A DNA stretch of 64,000 nt, from NCBI GenBank assembly GCA_027484425.1, contig JAIXSZ010000084.1:1-64000 (forward strand), given 5' to 3'. Each line of letters begins with the position of its first letter. Position 1 is the first letter of the stretch. Of this stretch, positions 15,668 through 24,454 are shown piece after piece. This stretch comes from Sphingobacteriales bacterium (GTDB lineage: Bacteria; Bacteroidota; Bacteroidia; Chitinophagales; Chitinophagaceae). Both the position numbers and the translations under genes were made by a program. The notes beneath the pieces are model-generated. The model did not search any database and was not told where the DNA came from. It saw nothing but the letters and a program-made list of their open reading frames with translations.

Positions 15668-17299
15668 ATGAAACTACTAAAACCAATCTGCATCATTGCT
15701 ATGACAATGGCCGCAAACGAACTGAAAGCACAAGGAGTAGCCATCAACAATGGAGGCACACCTGCACATAGCTCTGCAATGCTAGATGTAAGTGCTACCA
15801 ACAAGGGTATGCTAGCACCCCGCATGACTATGACTGAACGAGATGCAATAAGCACCCCTGCAACGGGATTATTGATTTTTCAGACTGATGCCACACCGGG
15901 CTTTTACTACTACAATGGTACCGCATGGGTAGCGGTGAGCGGTGGGGCGAGCGGTGGATACTGGGACCCTTCTGGCACAGCAGACATACACAATAACAAC
16001 AGCGGGAATGTAGGTATAGGCACAGCCACACCACTAGCAAAACTACATGTAAGTGATAGCAATGTAGTTTTCGCTGCCGAAGGCGCAGATGTCTCATTAC
16101 TTCCTGGCAACCCACCAGTAGCTGGGGCGGGTAGGAGAACAATGTGGTATGCCGACAAGGCAGCTTTTCGCACAGGCGCAGTTTATGCAACACAGTGGGA
16201 TATAGAAAATGTAGGAAACTATTCATTTGCAGCAGGTAGCAACAATATCGCCTCCGGTATATCTTCAACTTCATTGGGCGACTCCAATTTGGCAAGTGGC
16301 GGATATTCAATGGCGACTGGCTTCAGTACAATTGCTAGTGGCTTGTATTCTACTGCAGCTGGGAACAACACAACTGCCAGCGGATGGTGTTCCAAGGCTG
16401 GGGGATACAACGCGGTAGCCAGTGGATCATATGCTAACGCTATGGGATATAACGCATTAGCCAGTGGAGAAGCTGCCATAGCAATGGGATTCAGGGTAAC
16501 AGCGAGTGGAGCTTACACCATTGCAATGGGGTCTGATGCTAACGCAAGTGGTGGTGTCGCAATTGGTGGAGGGACAAACGCAAGCGGATTGTACTCTACT
16601 GCAATGGGTTCGAGTACAATCGCCAGTGGATGGTATTCTACCGCATTAGGCAGGCAAACAACCGCTAGTGGCCTTCTGTCTACCGCAATGGGCACACATG
16701 TCTCAACAAACGGGAAAGAAGGTTCTTTCGCAATTGGAGACAAATCCCCGGTGTTCACTACAGGAGTCTATACTTTGAACGATGCAAATAACCAAATGAT
16801 GATGCGCTTTGCTGGTGGTTATAAGTTGTATTCAAATGCAGCGACGACGATAGGGGTACAAGTAGTTGCAGGCGGTAATAGCTGGAGCACTATAAGTGAT
16901 GTGCGTAAGAAAGAAAACTTTGTGCCTGTGAATGGGGAGGAGTTTCTGAATAAGATAGCAAAATTCAACCTGACTAGCTGGAACTATAAAGGGCAAAACC
17001 CTAAAGAGTACCGCCACTATGGCCCTATGGCGCAAGACTTTTATGCTGCTTTTGGGAAGGATAGCTATGGTACTGTGGGCAATGATACTACCATCAGTCA
17101 GGCAGATATGGAAGGTGTGAGTTTTGTAGCGATACAAGCTCTGGAAAAACGCACCCGCGAACAGCAACAGCAAATAGAAGCACTTTTGAACGAAGTAAGG
17201 GCGCTAAAAGAAGCCAATAGTCTGAAAGTAGACGCAACAGAAAGGCTGGGAGTACAAGAAGCTGCTATTGATAACAAAACGAAAAACAACAACAAATAG
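15668..17299 (+). CDS. Trimeric fibre-like protein, paralogue of the preceding gene
   Basis: 543 residues from the ATG at 15668; an in-frame TTG at 15644 would extend it but lies upstream of the signal peptide. The first ~130 and last ~140 residues are nearly identical to the 13391-15340 product: same signal peptide, N-terminal domain and S74 domain (S-D-V-R-K-K-E-N near residue 408). The middle head has the same A-S-G-x-x-S-T-A-M-G unit but a different, shorter series without the 135-codon duplication. Conserved ends around a variable head suggest a tandem duplication followed by divergence or recombination. The next gene starts 56 bp downstream, so cotranscription is likely. Confidence 0.88.
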
Positions 17300-17355
17300 T
17301 GCAGGGAGCAATCCCCCCCTATTCATCATATTCAATACTTCAAAAAACACTCTTT

Positions 17356-20300
17356 ATGAAAAAAATAATATTGCTTACACTATGCTGCATCATGCAGTAC
17401 TGGGTCCATGCTCAGGCACATTTCACCATAGGTAGCGGCACACACTTCAGCGTCAGTAATGCTGCGTCTGTGGTAATGGATACAGGTGAATTTGTAAATA
17501 ATGGATTTTATACCGACTCTTCAGGCAATTTCTTTGCTGAGGGTGGCATCAACTTTGGTGGTACTGGTGTAACTCGTATGAACTCGCTGTATATCAACAA
17601 TACACAGCACACGAAAATGAATTCGTTGGTATCAGTGTACAATACCACAAAAATCACTGCTGGCAATGTAGATGCAAATGACCAACTCTACATAAGATCA
17701 GACGTCAACTTAATTGCTAACTTGATAGTAATAGGTGTGCTGAGCAATCCGGTAAAGGGCATAATAGCCAGAGCTAGTATGACTAGTGGTACAGGCTGTT
17801 TACCCTACACATCTAACCTGACACTAAATATATCTGGTGCAGCAATGCTGTATCAGTGGCAGTCATCGGCAGATAGTAGCGTATGGACAAATATAGGTGG
17901 AGCTACTAATGCTACCTATACAGCTACCGTATCTGCTACTACATGGTATAGATGTAGCCTTGCTACCAATAATAGTGCCTTTACTCAAGCTACCCCTGGT
18001 GTGAAACATACTTTCACAGGTACTTTACCCAATATAACTGGTGATAGCAGTGTATGTGCTGGGGCTTCTCTACCACTGGCTATAGCGGCTACAGGGGGTA
18101 CATGGATCAGCCAAAACACAGGCATAGCTACTGTAAACATAAGTACAGGAGTAGTAACAGGTGTAAGTGCAGGGGGGGTACTGATAACTTACCGACAGAC
18201 TCCAACCTGTTTCAAAACAAAGTTGATAATTGTAAAAGCACAGCCATCTGCCATAGGTGGAATAGCAGCAGTTTGTTTGGGATCGAGCAGCATACTTACT
18301 AATACCGTAACAGGGGGAATATGGACCAGCACCGCGACTAGTGTGGCTACTATAGGTTCTACTTCTGGTGCAGTAACAGGTGTAGCTGTAGGCAATAGTA
18401 CAATAACGTATGATAAGGCAGGATGTATAGCTACCAGAGTGGTGACGATAAACCCTGTACCAGATGTAGTGACAGGAACATTGTTTACCTGTATTGGTAG
18501 CACAACAGTGCTGAGCTGCGCCACATCAGGTGGTGTTTGGAGTAGTACTAATCTGCCAGTGGCAACGGTGAACAGCACTGGTGTAGTAACAGGCGTGGGC
18601 ATTGGAAGCACTATAATAAGATATACGCTGCCAGTTACAGGATGCAGAAGTTCTGCTACAGTAGCCGTGAATACACAACCAGCAGCGTTTACAGGCTCAC
18701 TAAGTGTCTGCGAAGGAACTACTACTACAATAGCTACATCCACTGCAGGTGGTACATGGTCTACCGCCAATCCAGTTATAGCTAGTATATCTGCAACAGG
18801 AGTAATTAGCGGATTAGTAGCAGGCAACACAACTGTAAGCTATAGTATGGGAGGCTCATGTATGCGTACTGCGGTTGTTACGGTAAACCCAGCGGTAGGC
18901 CCTATTACCGGAGATATGGTGGTGTGTTTGGGACAAACCACCCCATTGACAAATGTATCTGGTGGTGGCACATGGATAAGTAGCAGCCCAAGCACAGCAA
19001 CAGTGACTGGAATTTCGGGTATAGTATCTGGTGTGAGTGCTGGCACTGCTACTATTACCTATCGCCGCGCAACTGGATGCTTCACAACTACTGTAGTGAC
19101 AGTAAATAGTGCATTGGCAGCAATTAGTGGCACACCCAACGTATGTGTGGGCGAAACCACTACCCTCACCCACCCTAGCGCAGGCGGCACATGGAGCAGT
19201 AGTAACGTACTAAGAGGTACAATAGGTGCAACTAGTGGTGTAGTGACAGGCATTAGCGCAGGAGCCATGATTGTTACTTATCACCTCACGACTGGCTGCT
19301 ACAAGACACTAGCATTTACAGTAAAGGCATTACCATCAGCAATGGTAGGAACTGGTATTGTGTGCGAAGGTGCTACCACTACACTTCCATCAGCAACAGG
19401 TGGTGGTACATGGAGCAGCAGCAACACTAGTATAGCTACTGTGCCACTGACCAGCGCTACTGTGACTGGCATAGCGGCTGGAAATGCTACTATTACTTAT
19501 AGGGGTAGTAATGCATGTATTACTACCAGAGTGGTAACAGTAAACACTACACCAGCAGCGATAACAGGTACTCCTATTGTGTGTGTGAGCGCCACTACAG
19601 TATTGAGCTCGGCTACCGCGGGTGGCAACTGGATAAGCAGCAATACAACAAGAGCCACAGTAACCTCAACAGGAATAGTGACTGGAGTAAGCAGTGGTGG
19701 ATTGACAATTTCGTATGTGATGCCTACTGGCTGCAGAGCGTTACTACCAATAACGGTAAACGCAATACCTACCGCAATAACTGGTACACTAACTGTATGC
19801 GCTGGCAGCCACACCACACTATCCAACGCTATTGTGGGCGGCACATGGAGCAGCAGCAACCCTACTACAGCTACTGTACCCACCACGCCGGGTACTGTGA
19901 GCGCACATGCTACTGGTACTGCAACTATAACCTACACCATAGCCAACGGATGTACCCGTACAGCAGAAGTAACAGTAGCACCTGCTGTGAGCAACACTAC
20001 TGGTGCTGCTACAGTGTGCACAGGTGTAAACACACCACTGAGCAATACTAGTACTGGCGGTACATGGACAAGCAGCAACACAACAATAGCTGCCGTAAAT
20101 GTAACAACAGGATTGCTTGTACCAATAAGCACGGGCACTGCAATCATTACATACAGAGTATCGCCTGCATGCTACAACATACACCCCATAACGGTGAACC
20201 CTACCCCTGCTGCAATTACTGGCACTTTGAGGGCATGCCATGGTACCACTACCCTACTGAGCAGCGCTACTGCTGGTGGCACCTGGAGCAGTGCCAACAC

Positions 20301-21792
20301 TGGTGTAGCTACTGTGGATGCGTTGACAGGAGTGGTAACGGGTGTGGCTACTGGTACTACACATATTTCTTACCTATTACCTGCAGGCTGTTATAGAACA
20401 GTAATCGTAACCATCAACCCCATACCAACAGCTATAGGCGGTACTCCAACAGTTTGTGTGGGTGGCACGTCCCTACTTACCAACACAACTGGAGCCTGGA
20501 GCAGCAGTAATACTGCTGTGGCTACAGTAGGTGCATCGGGAGGGGTGACTGGTATCAGTGCTGGCACTGCGGTTATAACCTTTACATCAGGGGCTACATT
20601 GTGCAGCACTACTACTGTGGTGACCGTGAACCCACTGCCAGTGGCTATAACTGGTGCGGCAGCTACGTGTCCGGGTAATAGCTTTGCGCTAACATCTGGC
20701 ACAGTTGGTGGTACTTGGAGTAGCTTTAACCCTGCTGTGGCTAGTGTAGATGCTGCTACTGGTTTGGTGACTGGTGTGTATATACACAACTCGTTGACAA
20801 CTGTAACCACAATCTACTATACACTACCCACTGGTTGCCGTACATCTGTTATCGTAACGGTGAACCCGAGACCAGCGGCAATAGCTGGTGCCGTACCGAA
20901 TATATGTATCGGCAACACCACTGCTCTGACCAACAGCACCGCGGGTGGTAATTGGAGCAGCGATAATGCCAGTGTGGCCACAGTATCGTTGACTGGGGTA
21001 ACAACTGGCATAGCGGCAGGTACTGCCACCATCAGTTATGCCAATAGCTACGGATGTGCTGCCATTAGAGTAGTAACTGTAAACACCCCTCCGGGGAGCA
21101 ACAGTGGAACGCCAAGCCTTTGTGTAGGTGGCACAACCCTACTGACCAATGCTAGTGGTAGCGGCACCTGGAGTAGCAGCAATGCTGCCAGAGCTACTGT
21201 AGGGCTAACTACTGGTGTGGTAACTGGTATTAGTACTGGTACTGCCTTCATAACCTATACCGTGGCTACTGCATGCAACAGTGTAACTATGGTGACTGTG
21301 AACCCTGCACTAGCTGCCATAACTGGCGATAACACGGTTTGTATTACACTTAGTACTACCTACACCCACCCTGTAACTGGTGGCACCTGGAGCAGCAGCG
21401 ATGGGGCTGTGGCTACCGTGTCCAGCACTGGCACGGTGACAGGTGTGGCTATGGGCACTGCTACTATATCTTACCAAAGTGGAAGCTGTGTGGCTACCAA
21501 GATAGTAACCGTAAACTGTACTGCACGACCCACTGTGGCTGAAACAGATGAAGTGAAAGCAGCATTTAACCTCTACCCCAATCCGACTACTGGCGCCATA
21601 AACATCTATACTAGTGTAGCTGGCAAGGGCTGGATACAAACTGTAGATGGCAAACAGCTACAAGAGTTTGAGGTGGAAGCTGGCAATACTTCACTGACAT
21701 TACCTAATGATATCACTTCTGGTATATACCTACTACGATTTGTAGGGGTAGATGGTAGCAGTAATATGGTGCGCCTGATACTTAATCATTAG
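17356..21792 (+). CDS. Giant Ig-like (Big_2-type) repeat T9SS surface protein
   Basis: 1478 residues from the ATG at 17356 (M-K-K-I-I-L-L-T-L), chosen because it begins a clean signal peptide ending V-H-A-Q; the in-frame GTG at 17299 would add 19 non-signal residues. Residues ~20-150 form an N-terminal domain, followed by one PKD/Ig-like unit with Y-Q-W-Q-S-S. About 16 Big_2-like units come next (W-S-S-S-N, A-T-V, G-V-V-T-G, each with an early and a late Cys). The C-terminus is a type A T9SS sorting domain with L-Y-P-N-P-T-T-G near residue 1406. It is paralogous to the gene cut by the left edge. Probably a long surface stalk or adhesin, with no catalytic domain seen. Confidence 0.92.
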   Translation: MKKIILLTLCCIMQYWVHAQAHFTIGSGTHFSVSNAASVVMDTGEFVNNGFYTDSSGNFFAEGGINFGGTGVTRMNSLYINNTQHTKMNSLVSVYNTTKITAGNVDANDQLYIRSDVNLIANLIVIGVLSNPVKGIIARASMTSGTGCLPYTSNLTLNISGAAMLYQWQSSADSSVWTNIGGATNATYTATVSATTWYRCSLATNNSAFTQATPGVKHTFTGTLPNITGDSSVCAGASLPLAIAATGGTWISQNTGIATVNISTGVVTGVSAGGVLITYRQTPTCFKTKLIIVKAQPSAIGGIAAVCLGSSSILTNTVTGGIWTSTATSVATIGSTSGAVTGVAVGNSTITYDKAGCIATRVVTINPVPDVVTGTLFTCIGSTTVLSCATSGGVWSSTNLPVATVNSTGVVTGVGIGSTIIRYTLPVTGCRSSATVAVNTQPAAFTGSLSVCEGTTTTIATSTAGGTWSTANPVIASISATGVISGLVAGNTTVSYSMGGSCMRTAVVTVNPAVGPITGDMVVCLGQTTPLTNVSGGGTWISSSPSTATVTGISGIVSGVSAGTATITYRRATGCFTTTVVTVNSALAAISGTPNVCVGETTTLTHPSAGGTWSSSNVLRGTIGATSGVVTGISAGAMIVTYHLTTGCYKTLAFTVKALPSAMVGTGIVCEGATTTLPSATGGGTWSSSNTSIATVPLTSATVTGIAAGNATITYRGSNACITTRVVTVNTTPAAITGTPIVCVSATTVLSSATAGGNWISSNTTRATVTSTGIVTGVSSGGLTISYVMPTGCRALLPITVNAIPTAITGTLTVCAGSHTTLSNAIVGGTWSSSNPTTATVPTTPGTVSAHATGTATITYTIANGCTRTAEVTVAPAVSNTTGAATVCTGVNTPLSNTSTGGTWTSSNTTIAAVNVTTGLLVPISTGTAIITYRVSPACYNIHPITVNPTPAAITGTLRACHGTTTLLSSATAGGTWSSANTGVATVDALTGVVTGVATGTTHISYLLPAGCYRTVIVTINPIPTAIGGTPTVCVGGTSLLTNTTGAWSSSNTAVATVGASGGVTGISAGTAVITFTSGATLCSTTTVVTVNPLPVAITGAAATCPGNSFALTSGTVGGTWSSFNPAVASVDAATGLVTGVYIHNSLTTVTTIYYTLPTGCRTSVIVTVNPRPAAIAGAVPNICIGNTTALTNSTAGGNWSSDNASVATVSLTGVTTGIAAGTATISYANSYGCAAIRVVTVNTPPGSNSGTPSLCVGGTTLLTNASGSGTWSSSNAARATVGLTTGVVTGISTGTAFITYTVATACNSVTMVTVNPALAAITGDNTVCITLSTTYTHPVTGGTWSSSDGAVATVSSTGTVTGVAMGTATISYQSGSCVATKIVTVNCTARPTVAETDEVKAAFNLYPNPTTGAINIYTSVAGKGWIQTVDGKQLQEFEVEAGNTSLTLPNDITSGIYLLRFVGVDGSSNMVRLILNH

Positions 21793-21860: not shown

Positions 21861-22705
21861 TTAGTACGGATATTTTTGGTATGTGTTTTTCGGATTTTCC
21901 GGTTTGTTTCCGGTGATTTCATGGGTTTTGGTGCATAAGTCGTTGATTATCAATACTATTCGTTTTTGCTGGTTGTGAGGGGTGAAATGGGTGATGTAGT
22001 GGTATTTATTGATGTGTATTTTCTGTAGTGGGTGATTGTTGGTAGGTATCCTATTTTTTGGGTTTGTTGGGTTCATGGGATGATGATTAGTACGGATATT
22101 TTTGGTATGTGTTTTCTAGATTTTCCGGTTTGTTTCCGGTGATTTCATGGGTTTTGGTGCATAAGTCGTTGATTATCAATACTATTCACTTTTCCGGTTG
22201 TGAGGGGTGAAATGGGTAATGTAGCGGTATTTATTGATGTGTATTTTCTGTAGTGGGTGATTATTGGTAGGTATCCTATTTTTTGGGTTTGTTGGGTTCA
22301 TGGCATGATGATTAGTACGGATATTTTTGGTATGTGTGTTGCCGATTTTCCGGTTTGTTTCCGGTGATTTCATGGGTTTTGGCACTTAAGTCGTTGATTA
22401 TCAATACTATTCACTTTTCCGGTTGTGAGGGGTGAAGTGGGTGATGTAGCGGTATTTATTGATGTGTATTTTCTATAGTGGGTGATTGATGGTAGGTATC
22501 CTATTTTTTTGGTTTGTTGGGTTCATGGGATGATGATTAGTACGGATATTTTTGGCATGTGTTCTTCGGATTTTCCGGTTTGTTTCCGGTGATTTCATGG
22601 GTTTTGATGCTTAAGTGGTTGATTATCAATGCTATTCGTTTTTGCCGGTAGTGATGGGTGGAAAGGATGACGTGATGGGAATTATTGATGTGTATTGTAT
22701 ATAAT
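21861..22705. repeat. Tandem array, about 3.7 copies of a ~225-bp unit
   Basis: Units begin with TTAGTACGGATATTTTTGG at 21861, 22087, 22312 and 22537 (spacing 226, 225, 225 bp). The last unit degrades after ~150 bp and fades near 22705. Identity between units looks above 90 percent, with a small variable patch ~25 bp into each. The plus strand is strongly G/T-rich. Each unit holds the palindrome TTGATTATCAA. Stops occur in all frames at unit boundaries; the longest minus-strand frames (21861-22076, 22182-22385) look like simple-composition artefacts. Function unknown. Confidence 0.92.
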
Positions 22706-22770: not shown

Positions 22771-22893
22771 GTGGTGGTGTAGCTGGTGGCTGATGTGAGT
22801 TGTACTTTACCAGAAATAGAACGCCATCTACCCCACCCTATACCACAAATAGCGAGCCAAAGTGGGGTTTGGCAGAGGGTATTTTATCCACAA
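22771..22893. repeat. ~122-bp direct repeat, copy 1
   Basis: Matches 23069-23190 at roughly 88-90 percent by eye with one 1-bp indel. The paired copy lies just beyond the first hairpin module. Confidence 0.85.
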
Positions 22894-22943
22894 ATTTTGT
22901 TGTCGTAAGCAGAATGCTTGCGGTGTTACGTAGAGAAAGAGAT

Positions 22944-23066
22944 GGCTGGACCAAGGGGAGATTAACTAAAAACAAAATTTATCTAGCTGCAAAAAAGTGA
23001 AGGCGTTCGGGAGAACGAATTTTATTGGCAGTTCCAGTTGACCCTGCGGAACAACTGGAACAACGG
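22944..23066. repeat. 123-bp composite hairpin module, copy 1
   Basis: Aligns without gaps to 24158-24280 with about six differences, all in the first ~40 bp. It starts GGCTGGACCAA, contains a shared TTATCTAGCTGCAAAAAAG stretch, and ends with the 65-nt double-hairpin element (23002-23066). Confidence 0.88.
23002..23066. repeat. 65-nt double-hairpin element, copy 1
   Basis: Hairpin I is CGTTC-GGGA-GAACG. Hairpin II has perfect 10-bp arms GTTCCAGTTG and CAACTGGAAC around the 11-nt loop ACCCTGCGGAA. Confidence 0.9.
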
Positions 23067-23068
23067 TG

Positions 23069-23190
23069 TGGTGGTGTAGCTGGTGGCTGATATAAGTTAT
23101 ACTTTACTAGAAATAGAACGCCAACTACCCTACCCTATGCCACAAATAACGAGCCAAAGTGGGGTGTGGCAGAGGGTATTTTATCCACAA
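23069..23190. repeat. ~122-bp direct repeat, copy 2
   Basis: Second copy of 22771-22893. It begins within 3 bp of the end of double-hairpin copy 1, so the two repeat families are interleaved. Confidence 0.85.
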
Positions 23191-23252
23191 TTATTATTAT
23201 CTAATGCGTTGCGACAGCAGTAGTTAGGACAGAGTAGTTTGTAAAACATACT

Positions 23253-23260
23253 TATATTTG
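23253..23260 (+). promoter_or_regulatory. TAnnTTTG promoter element for the nucleotidyltransferase cassette
   Basis: TATATTTG followed by C, an exact consensus match 52 bp before the ATG at 23313. No repeat sequence lies between it and the gene. Confidence 0.55.
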
Positions 23261-23312
23261 CTAAGAAATACTATGAAGGGTTATTACTTTTTACTTCTAA
23301 AAAACTGCTAAC

Positions 23313-23489
23313 ATGGCTGAAATAATTAAATATTCAACTTTTGAGGAAGCAAAAATTGCAAACAATGCAACTGTAATAACAAATACAGAAGCACATAGAG
23401 ATTATGAATCATTCATCTCATTATTACAGAATGCTCTATCTGAAAAAAAGAAAATAAAGCATATTGAGAAAATGAATGAAAATGGATAA
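23313..23489 (+). CDS. Small protein upstream of and overlapping a nucleotidyltransferase
   Basis: 58 residues from the ATG at 23313 to the TAA at 23487-23489. Mostly polar and helical: M-A-E-I-I-K-Y-S-T-F-E-E-A-K-I at the start, a Lys-rich end (S-E-K-K-K-I-K-H-I-E-K), no signal peptide and no Cys. It overlaps the next gene by 14 bp in a different frame, which indicates translational coupling and a linked function. A small partner encoded just before a nucleotidyltransferase is the layout of toxin-antitoxin-like pairs, so an antitoxin-type role is possible. That is inference from gene order; the family is not recognised. Confidence 0.65.
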   Translation: MAEIIKYSTFEEAKIANNATVITNTEAHRDYESFISLLQNALSEKKKIKHIEKMNENG

Positions 23490-23988
23490 GGTATTTCAAG
23501 AAAGCTTATTGCACGTTTGTTCCTTACTGAATAAAAACAAGGTAGAATATCTTATAGTTGGTGGAACTGCTGTTGCATTATATGGTTATTATAGAATGTC
23601 AATAACAGTAAACGGAAAACCGGCTGAAAAACCAGACTTGGATTTTTGGTACAATCCCACATATGACAATTACTATAAATTACTGCGAGCGATTGCCGAT
23701 ATGGGAGTAGATGTATCTAGATACAAAAACGAAAAAAATCCAAACCCTAAAAAATCATTTTTCAGGTTAAATTTCGAACTTTTTACTGTTGACTTTATTC
23801 CTGAACTTCCTGGTTTACTTAAATTCAACCAATCTTATTTAAAAAAAGAAGTCATCATATTGCAAGGAACTGAAATAATCTTTGTTGATTTTGATGATTT
23901 AATTGAGAATAAACTAGCAATTGCAAGAGAAAAGGACTTAGAAGATGTTGAAGAACTCAAAAGAATACGGAACAATAATATTTTGTAG
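23476..23988 (+). CDS. Nucleotidyltransferase-fold protein (AbiEii/MNT-like)
   Basis: 170 residues. An N-terminal helix is followed by Y-L-I-V-G-G-T-A-V-A-L-Y-G (residues ~25-37), the GG-[ST]-x-x-x-x-G nucleotide loop. The paired acidic motif P-D-L-D-F-W lies near 53-58 and a third Asp in F-T-V-D-F-I-P near 107; together these form the metal-binding triad of the Pol-beta-type nucleotidyltransferase fold. The C-terminal helical part has D-F-D-D-L-I-E-N-K-L-A-I-A-R, typical of the AbiEii-like superfamily. Such proteins modify tRNA or protein partners and often act as toxins or antitoxins. The AT-rich base use and hairpin-repeat surroundings suggest a mobile or acquired cassette. Start: ATG at 23476, with 23482 (M-D-K-V) as an alternative. 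Confidence 0.8.
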   Translation: MKMDKVFQESLLHVCSLLNKNKVEYLIVGGTAVALYGYYRMSITVNGKPAEKPDLDFWYNPTYDNYYKLLRAIADMGVDVSRYKNEKNPNPKKSFFRLNFELFTVDFIPELPGLLKFNQSYLKKEVIILQGTEIIFVDFDDLIENKLAIAREKDLEDVEELKRIRNNNIL

Positions 23989-24041
23989 AAGGAATTCTAG
24001 TGAGAAAATTTCAACCCATTATCTACACATTTTTATTTTCG

Positions 24042-24056
24042 CAAGCGCAACGCTTG
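24042..24056. repeat. Hairpin CAAGCG-CAA-CGCTTG
   Basis: Perfect 6-bp stem with a 3-nt loop. A similar but imperfect hairpin occurs at ~22907-22923 in the other arm of the island. Confidence 0.7.
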
Positions 24057-24102
24057 TAAAAGGGAGGAATTAGAAAATATAGAATAGAAATGAATGATAC
24101 GC

Positions 24103-24116
24103 CGGTCAGGAGACCG
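24103..24116. repeat. Hairpin CGGTC-AGGA-GACCG
   Basis: Perfect 5-bp stem with loop AGGA. This loop is also found in hairpin I of double-hairpin copies 3 and 4, although the stem sequence differs. Confidence 0.75.
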
Positions 24117-24129
24117 AACACCACTATGA

Positions 24130-24147
24130 CGTAGACGATAGTCTACG
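24130..24147. repeat. Hairpin CGTAGAC-GATA-GTCTACG
   Basis: Perfect 7-bp stem with a 4-nt loop, 13 bp after the preceding hairpin. Confidence 0.8.
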
Positions 24148-24157
24148 CCAAGCTGAG

Positions 24158-24280
24158 GGCTGGACCAATGGGAGGTAGACTAAGAACAAAAATTATCTAG
24201 CTGCAAAAAAGTGAAGGCGTTCGGGAGAACGAATTTTATTGGCAGTTCCAGTTGACCCTGCGGAACAACTGGAACAACGG
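24158..24280. repeat. 123-bp composite hairpin module, copy 2
   Basis: Gap-free match to 22944-23066. It ends with double-hairpin copy 2 (24216-24280), which is identical to copy 1. Confidence 0.88.
24216..24280. repeat. 65-nt double-hairpin element, copy 2
   Basis: Identical to copy 1. Hairpin I has loop GGGA; hairpin II arms are GTTCCAGTTG/CAACTGGAAC. Confidence 0.9.
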
Positions 24281-24345
24281 GGCGTTCAGGAGAACGAATT
24301 TTATTGGCAGTTCCAGTTGACCCTGCGGAACAACTGGAACAACGG
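24281..24345. repeat. 65-nt double-hairpin element, copy 3
   Basis: Directly abuts copy 2. The hairpin I loop is AGGA instead of GGGA; stems are unchanged. Confidence 0.9.
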
Positions 24346-24389
24346 GTGATAGACTACTAACAAAATTTATCTAGCTGCAAAAAAGTGAA

Positions 24390-24454
24390 GGCGTTCAGGA
24401 GAACGAATTTTATTGGCAGCTCCAGTTGACCCTGCGGAACAACTGGAGCAACGG
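24390..24454. repeat. 65-nt double-hairpin element, copy 4
   Basis: Hairpin II arms are GCTCCAGTTG/CAACTGGAGC: both sides of one base pair changed (T-A to C-G) relative to copies 1-3, so the stem stays perfect. The hairpin I loop is AGGA. It is preceded by the same TTATCTAGCTGCAAAAAAG stretch as copies 1 and 2. Confidence 0.9.

Follow-up and report, generated by a model that had tools for sequence, protein, structure and literature searches.

What are the four short double hairpins that lie close together in a 64,000-nt stretch of the genome of a Sphingobacteriales bacterium (the window, by which we mean the whole stretch of DNA that was analyzed), and what has multiplied them? A sequence-only reading had seen in them a 65-nt element of no nameable family and had proposed a non-autonomous mobile element, a structured RNA, or a nucleoid or recombination site.

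The repeat in the window and across the genome

All four copies, which had been described as near-identical double hairpins, are present at 23002-23066, 24216-24280, 24281-24345, and 24390-24454, and their sequences and predicted folds bear out that description (Table 1). In the fold, hairpin I of this element, here called REP-A, keeps a stem of 5 bp (CGTTC/GAACG) while its loop is GGGA or AGGA, as had been noticed, and hairpin II is predicted to have 10 bp, a small internal loop, and an apical mini-stem. Fold energies range from -21.5 to -23.9 kcal/mol, and no copy was equaled in stability by more than 2 of its 200 dinucleotide shuffles. In copy 4, GCTCC../..GGAGC replaces GTTCC../..GGAAC in hairpin II, so that the paired change reported there is a true double change from T-A to C-G. 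The proposed length of 65 nt was too short: the copies are real, but the conserved unit starts about 16 nt farther upstream (GCTGC..AAAGTGAA) and farther still in many copies. Over 126 nt, the sequences that run up to the ends of copies 1 and 2 agree at 94%, and copy 3 stands head-to-tail behind copy 2 without a leader.

Table 1. Positions of REP-A copies and neighboring features in the window
Feature	Position	Strand	Details
Tandem array ARR	21861..22696	+	unit 225 bp, 3.7 copies; context, outside REP
Repeat module X, copy one	22771..22904	+	5' of REP-A copy 1
Leader of REP-A copy 1	from 22941		common to copy 2
REP-A copy 1	22986..23066	+	hairpin I 23004-23017, hairpin II 23031-23061
Repeat module X, copy two	23068..23201	+	90%; immediately 3' of REP-A copy 1
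170-aa ORF	23476..23988	+	flanked by direct REP-A copies
Second double hairpin	24100..24149	+	CGGTC-AGGA-GACCG then CGTAGAC-GATA-GTCTACG
Leader of REP-A copy 2	from 24155		common to copy 1
REP-A copy 2	24200..24280	+	hairpin I 24218-24231, hairpin II 24245-24275
REP-A copy 3	24281..24345	+	hairpin I 24283-24296, hairpin II 24310-24340
REP-A copy 4	24374..24454	+	paired T-A to C-G change; hairpin I 24392-24405, hairpin II 24419-24449

The 170-aa ORF between the direct copies gave a weak match to a DUF6036 nucleotidyltransferase, which scored 20.1 bits where 23.6 is the cut-off. Immediately 5' of the ARR array, positions 17299-21792 encode a 1497-aa protein built from repeated segments, whose C-terminal stretch we take to resemble a type IX sorting signal.

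The genome itself (G000) is a 4.58-Mb draft in 95 contigs. With one copy as the query, and with 40 of 50 candidates scored, REP-A was found at no fewer than 43 places, so that the copies are genome-wide rather than the four of the window only. For further analysis we used 49 copies, that is, distinct places in the fetched stretches that were kept by hand from a longer BLAST list rather than a genome-wide census; one place repeated in overlapping loci and weak opposite-strand matches were excluded. Six to seven copies form a subfamily with GTTCCGGATG/CATCCGGAAC in place of GTTCCAGTTG/CAACTGGAAC. Across the REP-A clade, hairpin I has 5 to 6 bp and a loop of 3 to 4 nt, for the most part NGGA, GGA, or GCA, with C-G or T-A as the usual closing pair; a linker of about 12 to 13 nt leads to hairpin II with its 10 bp and an apical part (for instance CCCTTCGGAA or CGCTACGCTAA), followed by ..AACAACGRG.

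REP-A is present in many copies, nearly all of them outside long ORFs. A complete ORF of at least 150 aa is overlapped by one of the 49 copies (48 are free), and one of at least 100 aa by 6 (43 are free). One frame of the consensus is open (LLESEGVRENDFYWQFQLTLRNNWNNE), as would be expected of a short protein-coding repeat, but an in-frame stop interrupts it in 25 of the 49 copies and frame-changing indels occur among them. Together with the position of 48 copies outside ORFs of 150 aa or more, this led us to reject a coding repeat, for which we see practically no chance.

Transposase genes and their flanking repeats

A Y1 (REP-associated) transposase, which the sequence-only reading had brought up as a possible partner elsewhere in the genome, is indeed encoded there. 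The Pfam Y1_Tnp model found two genes in the genome and NF047646 gave five matches; RAYT-A, with 176 aa and encoded on a contig other than that of the window (C1), and RAYT-B, with 181 aa and on contig C83, pass the NF047646 REP_Tyr_transpos cut-off of 80 with 111.8 and 100.7 bits. RAYT-A is flanked on both sides by outward-pointing REP-A, one copy intact and one decayed. Its motifs (NHIH, WQ, and YIHQNP) and HuH-Y distance of 79 resemble those of TnpAREP subclass 2.6, for which NH[LIV]H, WQ, YIH[QN]NP, a median length of 179 aa, and a distance of 82 are given (PMC6006769). RAYT-B, with WT, IYQNP, 181 aa, and a spacing of 85, deviates from the motifs of this subclass and is flanked by two copies of a different double hairpin, REP-B, which gave 9 BLAST matches. 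The second double hairpin of the window, which is absent from these matches, looks by eye like a member of the REP-B family of RAYT-B. A third RAYT gene, on contig C51, adjoins single hairpins, GTTGTTGGCG-AGGA-CGCCAACAAC (REP-C).

Two traces of past events at such genes were seen in passing. On C51 (L128, 1-2700), the third RAYT gene is followed by tandem duplications of the gene 3' end together with its single-hairpin REP with the AGGA loop. On contig C3 (L029, 1581-1801), a decayed start of a RAYT-A gene, 93% identical over 44 aa and with one stop, lies between two direct REP-A copies.

The transposase gene and its element also co-occur across species. Relatives of RAYT-A were found in 30 of 35 genomes of the genus, its own included. 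At seven congener loci with genes 69 to 85% identical to RAYT-A, the element lies within 400 nt on both flanks in six, and in the seventh (L105) on the downstream flank only. By sequence, REP-A was matched in 22 of 60 genomes, all within the genus, and in none of the 25 genomes outside it. The nearest relative, G129 (a draft genome, 95% complete), has many REP-A copies, and its best match to RAYT-A reaches only 50%.

A scan for NGGA-loop hairpins beside RAYTs had given a mixed result and was replaced by a comparison of the two flanks with each other, which in its earlier form covered 56 of 60 RAYT loci (4 had short flanks). In the full survey, 103 loci were taken, of which 7 had flanks that were too short and 10 were duplicates; the 86 tested include named records of Pedobacter, Fulvivirga, Marinoscillum, Parapedobacter, and Reichenbachiella. 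Outward flank similarity (reached by at most 2 of 200 shuffles) was seen at 72 of these 86 distinct loci and was not found at 14; among 86 similarly sized ORFs picked mechanically from G000 as controls, it was seen at 1. With a simple fold, two or more hairpins were predicted on both flanks of 35 of the 72 significant loci and on at least one flank of 56. At the RAYT loci L072, L073, L115, L120, and L123, both REP hairpins seem by eye to carry the same loop; in such REPs of several species the loop is AGA, GCA, GAAAA, or GGGAC, as if one protein read both.

Compensatory change and the nature of the element

Taken alone, the single double change among the four window copies is weak evidence of covariation. 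Likewise, the alignment of the 49 own-genome copies (A1) is by itself not decisive, since controls in which the partners were slid along the alignment approach or exceed the true structure on two measures. Cells with both sides changed number 20 here and 6.2 after shuffling, but with the partners slid by +2 or +3 columns there are still 16 and 17 of them; in these two slid versions 9 and 10 pairs are changed, versus 8 in the true structure.

The question is settled by 36 RAYT-flanking copies from 18 loci, which were hand-chosen among those with a gene at least 57% identical to RAYT-A and significant flanks; two rows from L152 were shifted by 11 nt by hand to take in hairpin I. In this alignment 92.4% of cells are paired versus 77.4% after shuffling, and both sides are changed in 77 cells, which count sequences and not events, versus 21.7 (sd 5.1) after shuffling and no more than 18 when the structure is slid. 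The covariation score is 0.356 versus 0.104, and none of 500 shuffles reached the observed paired fraction, double-changed cells, or score. One position is occupied by C-G, G-C, and A-T pairs, the next by G-C, A-T, and T-A. The paired stems of REP-A are kept through compensatory change, and the suspicion that the folded form matters, first raised by copy 4, has held on these wider data.

A structured RNA (a small RNA, a terminator-like or a 3'-UTR element) that was passively multiplied and selected for its RNA fold would share the stable folds and the paired changes, but it leaves the outward-pointing copies on both flanks of RAYT genes unexplained. Rfam, moreover, returned no match on the element at E values up to 1, the one sub-threshold hit, to a microRNA, lying elsewhere in the window on the other strand. 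This early suggestion found no support, and we consider it very unlikely.

Instead, REP-A is very probably a two-hairpin REP, that is, a short non-autonomous single-stranded DNA element and the cognate of RAYT-A (TnpAREP subclass 2.6 type). Because of the partner gene, the conservation of the pair, the covariation, and the anatomy, we regard it with fair certainty as the REP of a subclass 2.6 type REPtron, RAYT-A being assigned to this subclass by motifs, length, and spacing. An element that had seemed to match no family can be named in this way, and the early guess of a non-autonomous mobile element agrees with its 43 or more genomic copies, the excess of paired changes, and the flanked Y1 gene.

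Subclass 2.6 (group 5 of Bertels) occurs mostly in Bacteroidetes and is described as flanked by "atypical," "weaker" secondary structures without GT[AG]G (PMC6006769). REP-A resembles it in the presence of a Y1/HUH gene with the REP_Tyr transposase motifs, length, and spacing, in the structured repeats that flank this gene and have copies elsewhere, and in the missing GT[AG]G foot. It differs in that two consecutive hairpins with a short linker and a quantified covariation can be specified here, whereas the main text of PMC6006769 says only "atypical." With the canonical GTAG REPs, REPINs, and BIMEs of E. coli and Pseudomonas (PMC3116915, PMC3733652, PMC8266576), REP-A shares the character of small dispersed palindromes tied to a RAYT, and the bulge described for the E. 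coli REP (PMC8266576) is reminiscent of the internal loop of hairpin II. In contrast to these, no GT[AG]G foot was found within 6 nt 5' of either hairpin in the 49 own copies or the 36 RAYT-flanking copies, and whereas inverted doublets are the basic unit of the canonical elements, REP-A neighbors are mostly direct. IS200/IS605 elements (IS608 and ISDra2) belong to the same Y1/HUH superfamily as RAYT-A but carry their own gene, while REP-A repeats lie apart from one or few genes.

From these sequence features we infer that REP-A is mobile. With the written strand single-stranded, as on a lagging-strand template, both hairpins would fold and might be bound by RAYT-A, which would cut beside the element, with the 3' boundary directly behind ..AACAACGRG as the likeliest place, and join the element to a new single-stranded target. 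Copies would then build up in intergenic DNA, and most of them would point the same way with respect to replication. We assume the common REP-A subfamily to be moved by RAYT-A and not by one of the other RAYTs; since RAYT-A itself is bordered by decayed copies or by members of the minority CCGGATG subfamily, this pairing is made by architecture.

Orientation, breakpoints, and intervening genes

Among neighboring REP-A copies within 3 kb in the fetched loci of its own genome, 18 pairs are direct and 1 is inverted (n = 19), the latter being the pair around RAYT-A; in G129 all 12 pairs are direct. Ten regions of seven other congeners, picked for two or more REP-A matches close together, gave 16 direct and 7 inverted pairs (n = 23). 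Three of the inverted pairs enclose a RAYT gene, and the other four are confined to two contigs, one in G120 and one in G136.

REP-A also shows a modest bias toward the G-rich strand, tested in two ways with uncorrected p values. In flanks distant from the repeats, 21 of 28 clusters have a positive GC skew on the REP strand (p = 0.0125), as have 20 of 26 for the replication component of third-position (GC3) skew (p = 0.009); the gene strand shows no bias (12 of 28). A first GC-skew pass (25 of 28) had included the repeats and was discounted. If leading strands are G-rich here, as is the general rule, the written REP-A strand would be the lagging-strand template. Direct orientation and strand bias fit, with exceptions, single-strand insertion into this template. 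A preference for the lagging-strand template is described for IS608 and IS200/IS605 (PMC6006769), and tandem REP arrays of SBW25 are reported to be oriented oppositely on either side of the genome (PMC3116915).

When G129 was compared with G000, a REP-A 3' end was no more than 11 nt away from 8 of 18 homology-block ends, counted by hand with ARR-only, REP-only, and dispersed-repeat blocks excluded; adding two short L135 blocks makes this 8 of 22. Five of these eight contain the REP and three begin just behind it. At all three of the latter, a different hairpin repeat ends at the corresponding point of G000: in one case REP-C, in another a hairpin with an AAAA loop, and in the third a degenerate sequence resembling the AAAA-loop hairpin (these two by eye). 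Segments that G000 has on its contigs C23, C3, and C37 stand together on one G129 contig, and the G129 stretches L130 and L134, mapped on the own genome, gave no informative unique blocks. Like the strand bias, the 3' breakpoint is supported but modest. At one site with REP-A and its leader in G129, G000 has some 37 to 60 poorly alignable bases between collinear flanks, a near-empty site with blurred edges. A search for synteny through the 301-aa protease gene beside copies matched 2 of 34 congeners, at 28% or less, and revealed no empty site there.

Among the proteins between REP-A copies that were chosen for scanning, ten in each of two scans, were PIN with DUF2281, PemK, HTH_3, AAA_15 (adjoining a DUF4276 match below cut-off), and PDDEXK_4 (PD-(D/E)XK). 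Near two tandem copies on contig C54, PADLOC models matched two proteins, one of type IIG restriction-modification and one TIR-like. Gene orientation between copies is mixed. ARR arrays occur within 1.5 kb 5' of 27 of the 49 REP-A copies and 3' of none, copies in a cluster sharing an array. Their units of about 180 to 226 bp (128 matches to related units genome-wide) have a conserved, CCGGT-rich core of about 75 to 100 nt with TTGATTATCAA; many arrays lie at contig ends, and no family was recognized by eye in the consensus. Arrays are also present on C64, C72, C22, C27, C30, C39, C78, and C84, contigs without a REP-A match among the at least 43 places listed. Separately, L045 (6219-6521) and the G129 stretch L132 (3275-3857) share a 93% block that lies 3' of REP-C in the former and 3' of REP-A in the latter; its 100-aa ORF looks by eye like a RelE/ParE toxin and had no Pfam match.

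Could the repeats also be the recombination sites of an integron-like system? Integron attC sites, which carry the R'' and R' boxes RYYYAAC and GTTRRRY, are directly repeated hairpin sites between small accessory genes, and REP-A shares the direct repetition of hairpins between such genes. REP-A would on this account lie next to an ARR array and exchange would occur at its 3' end. The direct orientation of neighbors in G000 and G129, the arrays that lie 5' and, for the 49 copies, not 3', the block ends near REP-A 3' ends with another hairpin repeat ending at all three block starts, and the G129 contig joined from three G000 contigs all speak for such a system. Nevertheless, an integron integrase above cut-off is absent from the own genome (best TIGR02249 score 73.9 bits versus 265), several ARR arrays lie on contigs without a listed REP-A match, and two further G129 contigs are uninformative. 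Both genomes, moreover, are drafts, and for the five of eight ends that contain the REP an internal crossover or a misassembly would look alike, while a replication bias could yield direct orientation without cassettes. The mixed neighbor orientation on two contigs of other congeners lowered our estimate slightly further, and we consider such recombination sites unlikely. That the cassettes would be toxin-antitoxin, defense-like, and unknown genes between directly repeated hairpins agrees with the toxin-antitoxin and defense-like genes among the scanned proteins but not with their mixed orientation, and appears equally doubtful. Unlikely, too, is a REP-based counterpart of the integron in which, with no integron integrase involved, a domesticated single-strand transposase makes its cuts at REP 3' ends and reshuffles toxin-antitoxin and defense genes among ARR-anchored arrays. 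The 3' breakpoints and the genes between copies allow, without proving, REP-delimited gene cassettes, and it is only in this possible form that the early guess of a recombination site survives; the breakpoint pattern could also come from draft assemblies, REP-internal crossovers, or island turnover.

In conclusion, REP-A, very probably a two-hairpin REP, supplies a structure and a measure of paired change for repeats that the main text of PMC6006769 terms only "atypical," those of a transposase group of Bacteroidota; in the open-license PMC literature searched, we recognized no description of double-hairpin REPs or REP cassettes. From species to species the stems change in sequence but the two-hairpin architecture stays, so that recognition by the transposase can be put to the test. 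Should the 3' breakpoints prove to be transposase cuts, REPs would be joining points of accessory and defense genes and not just passive repeats.
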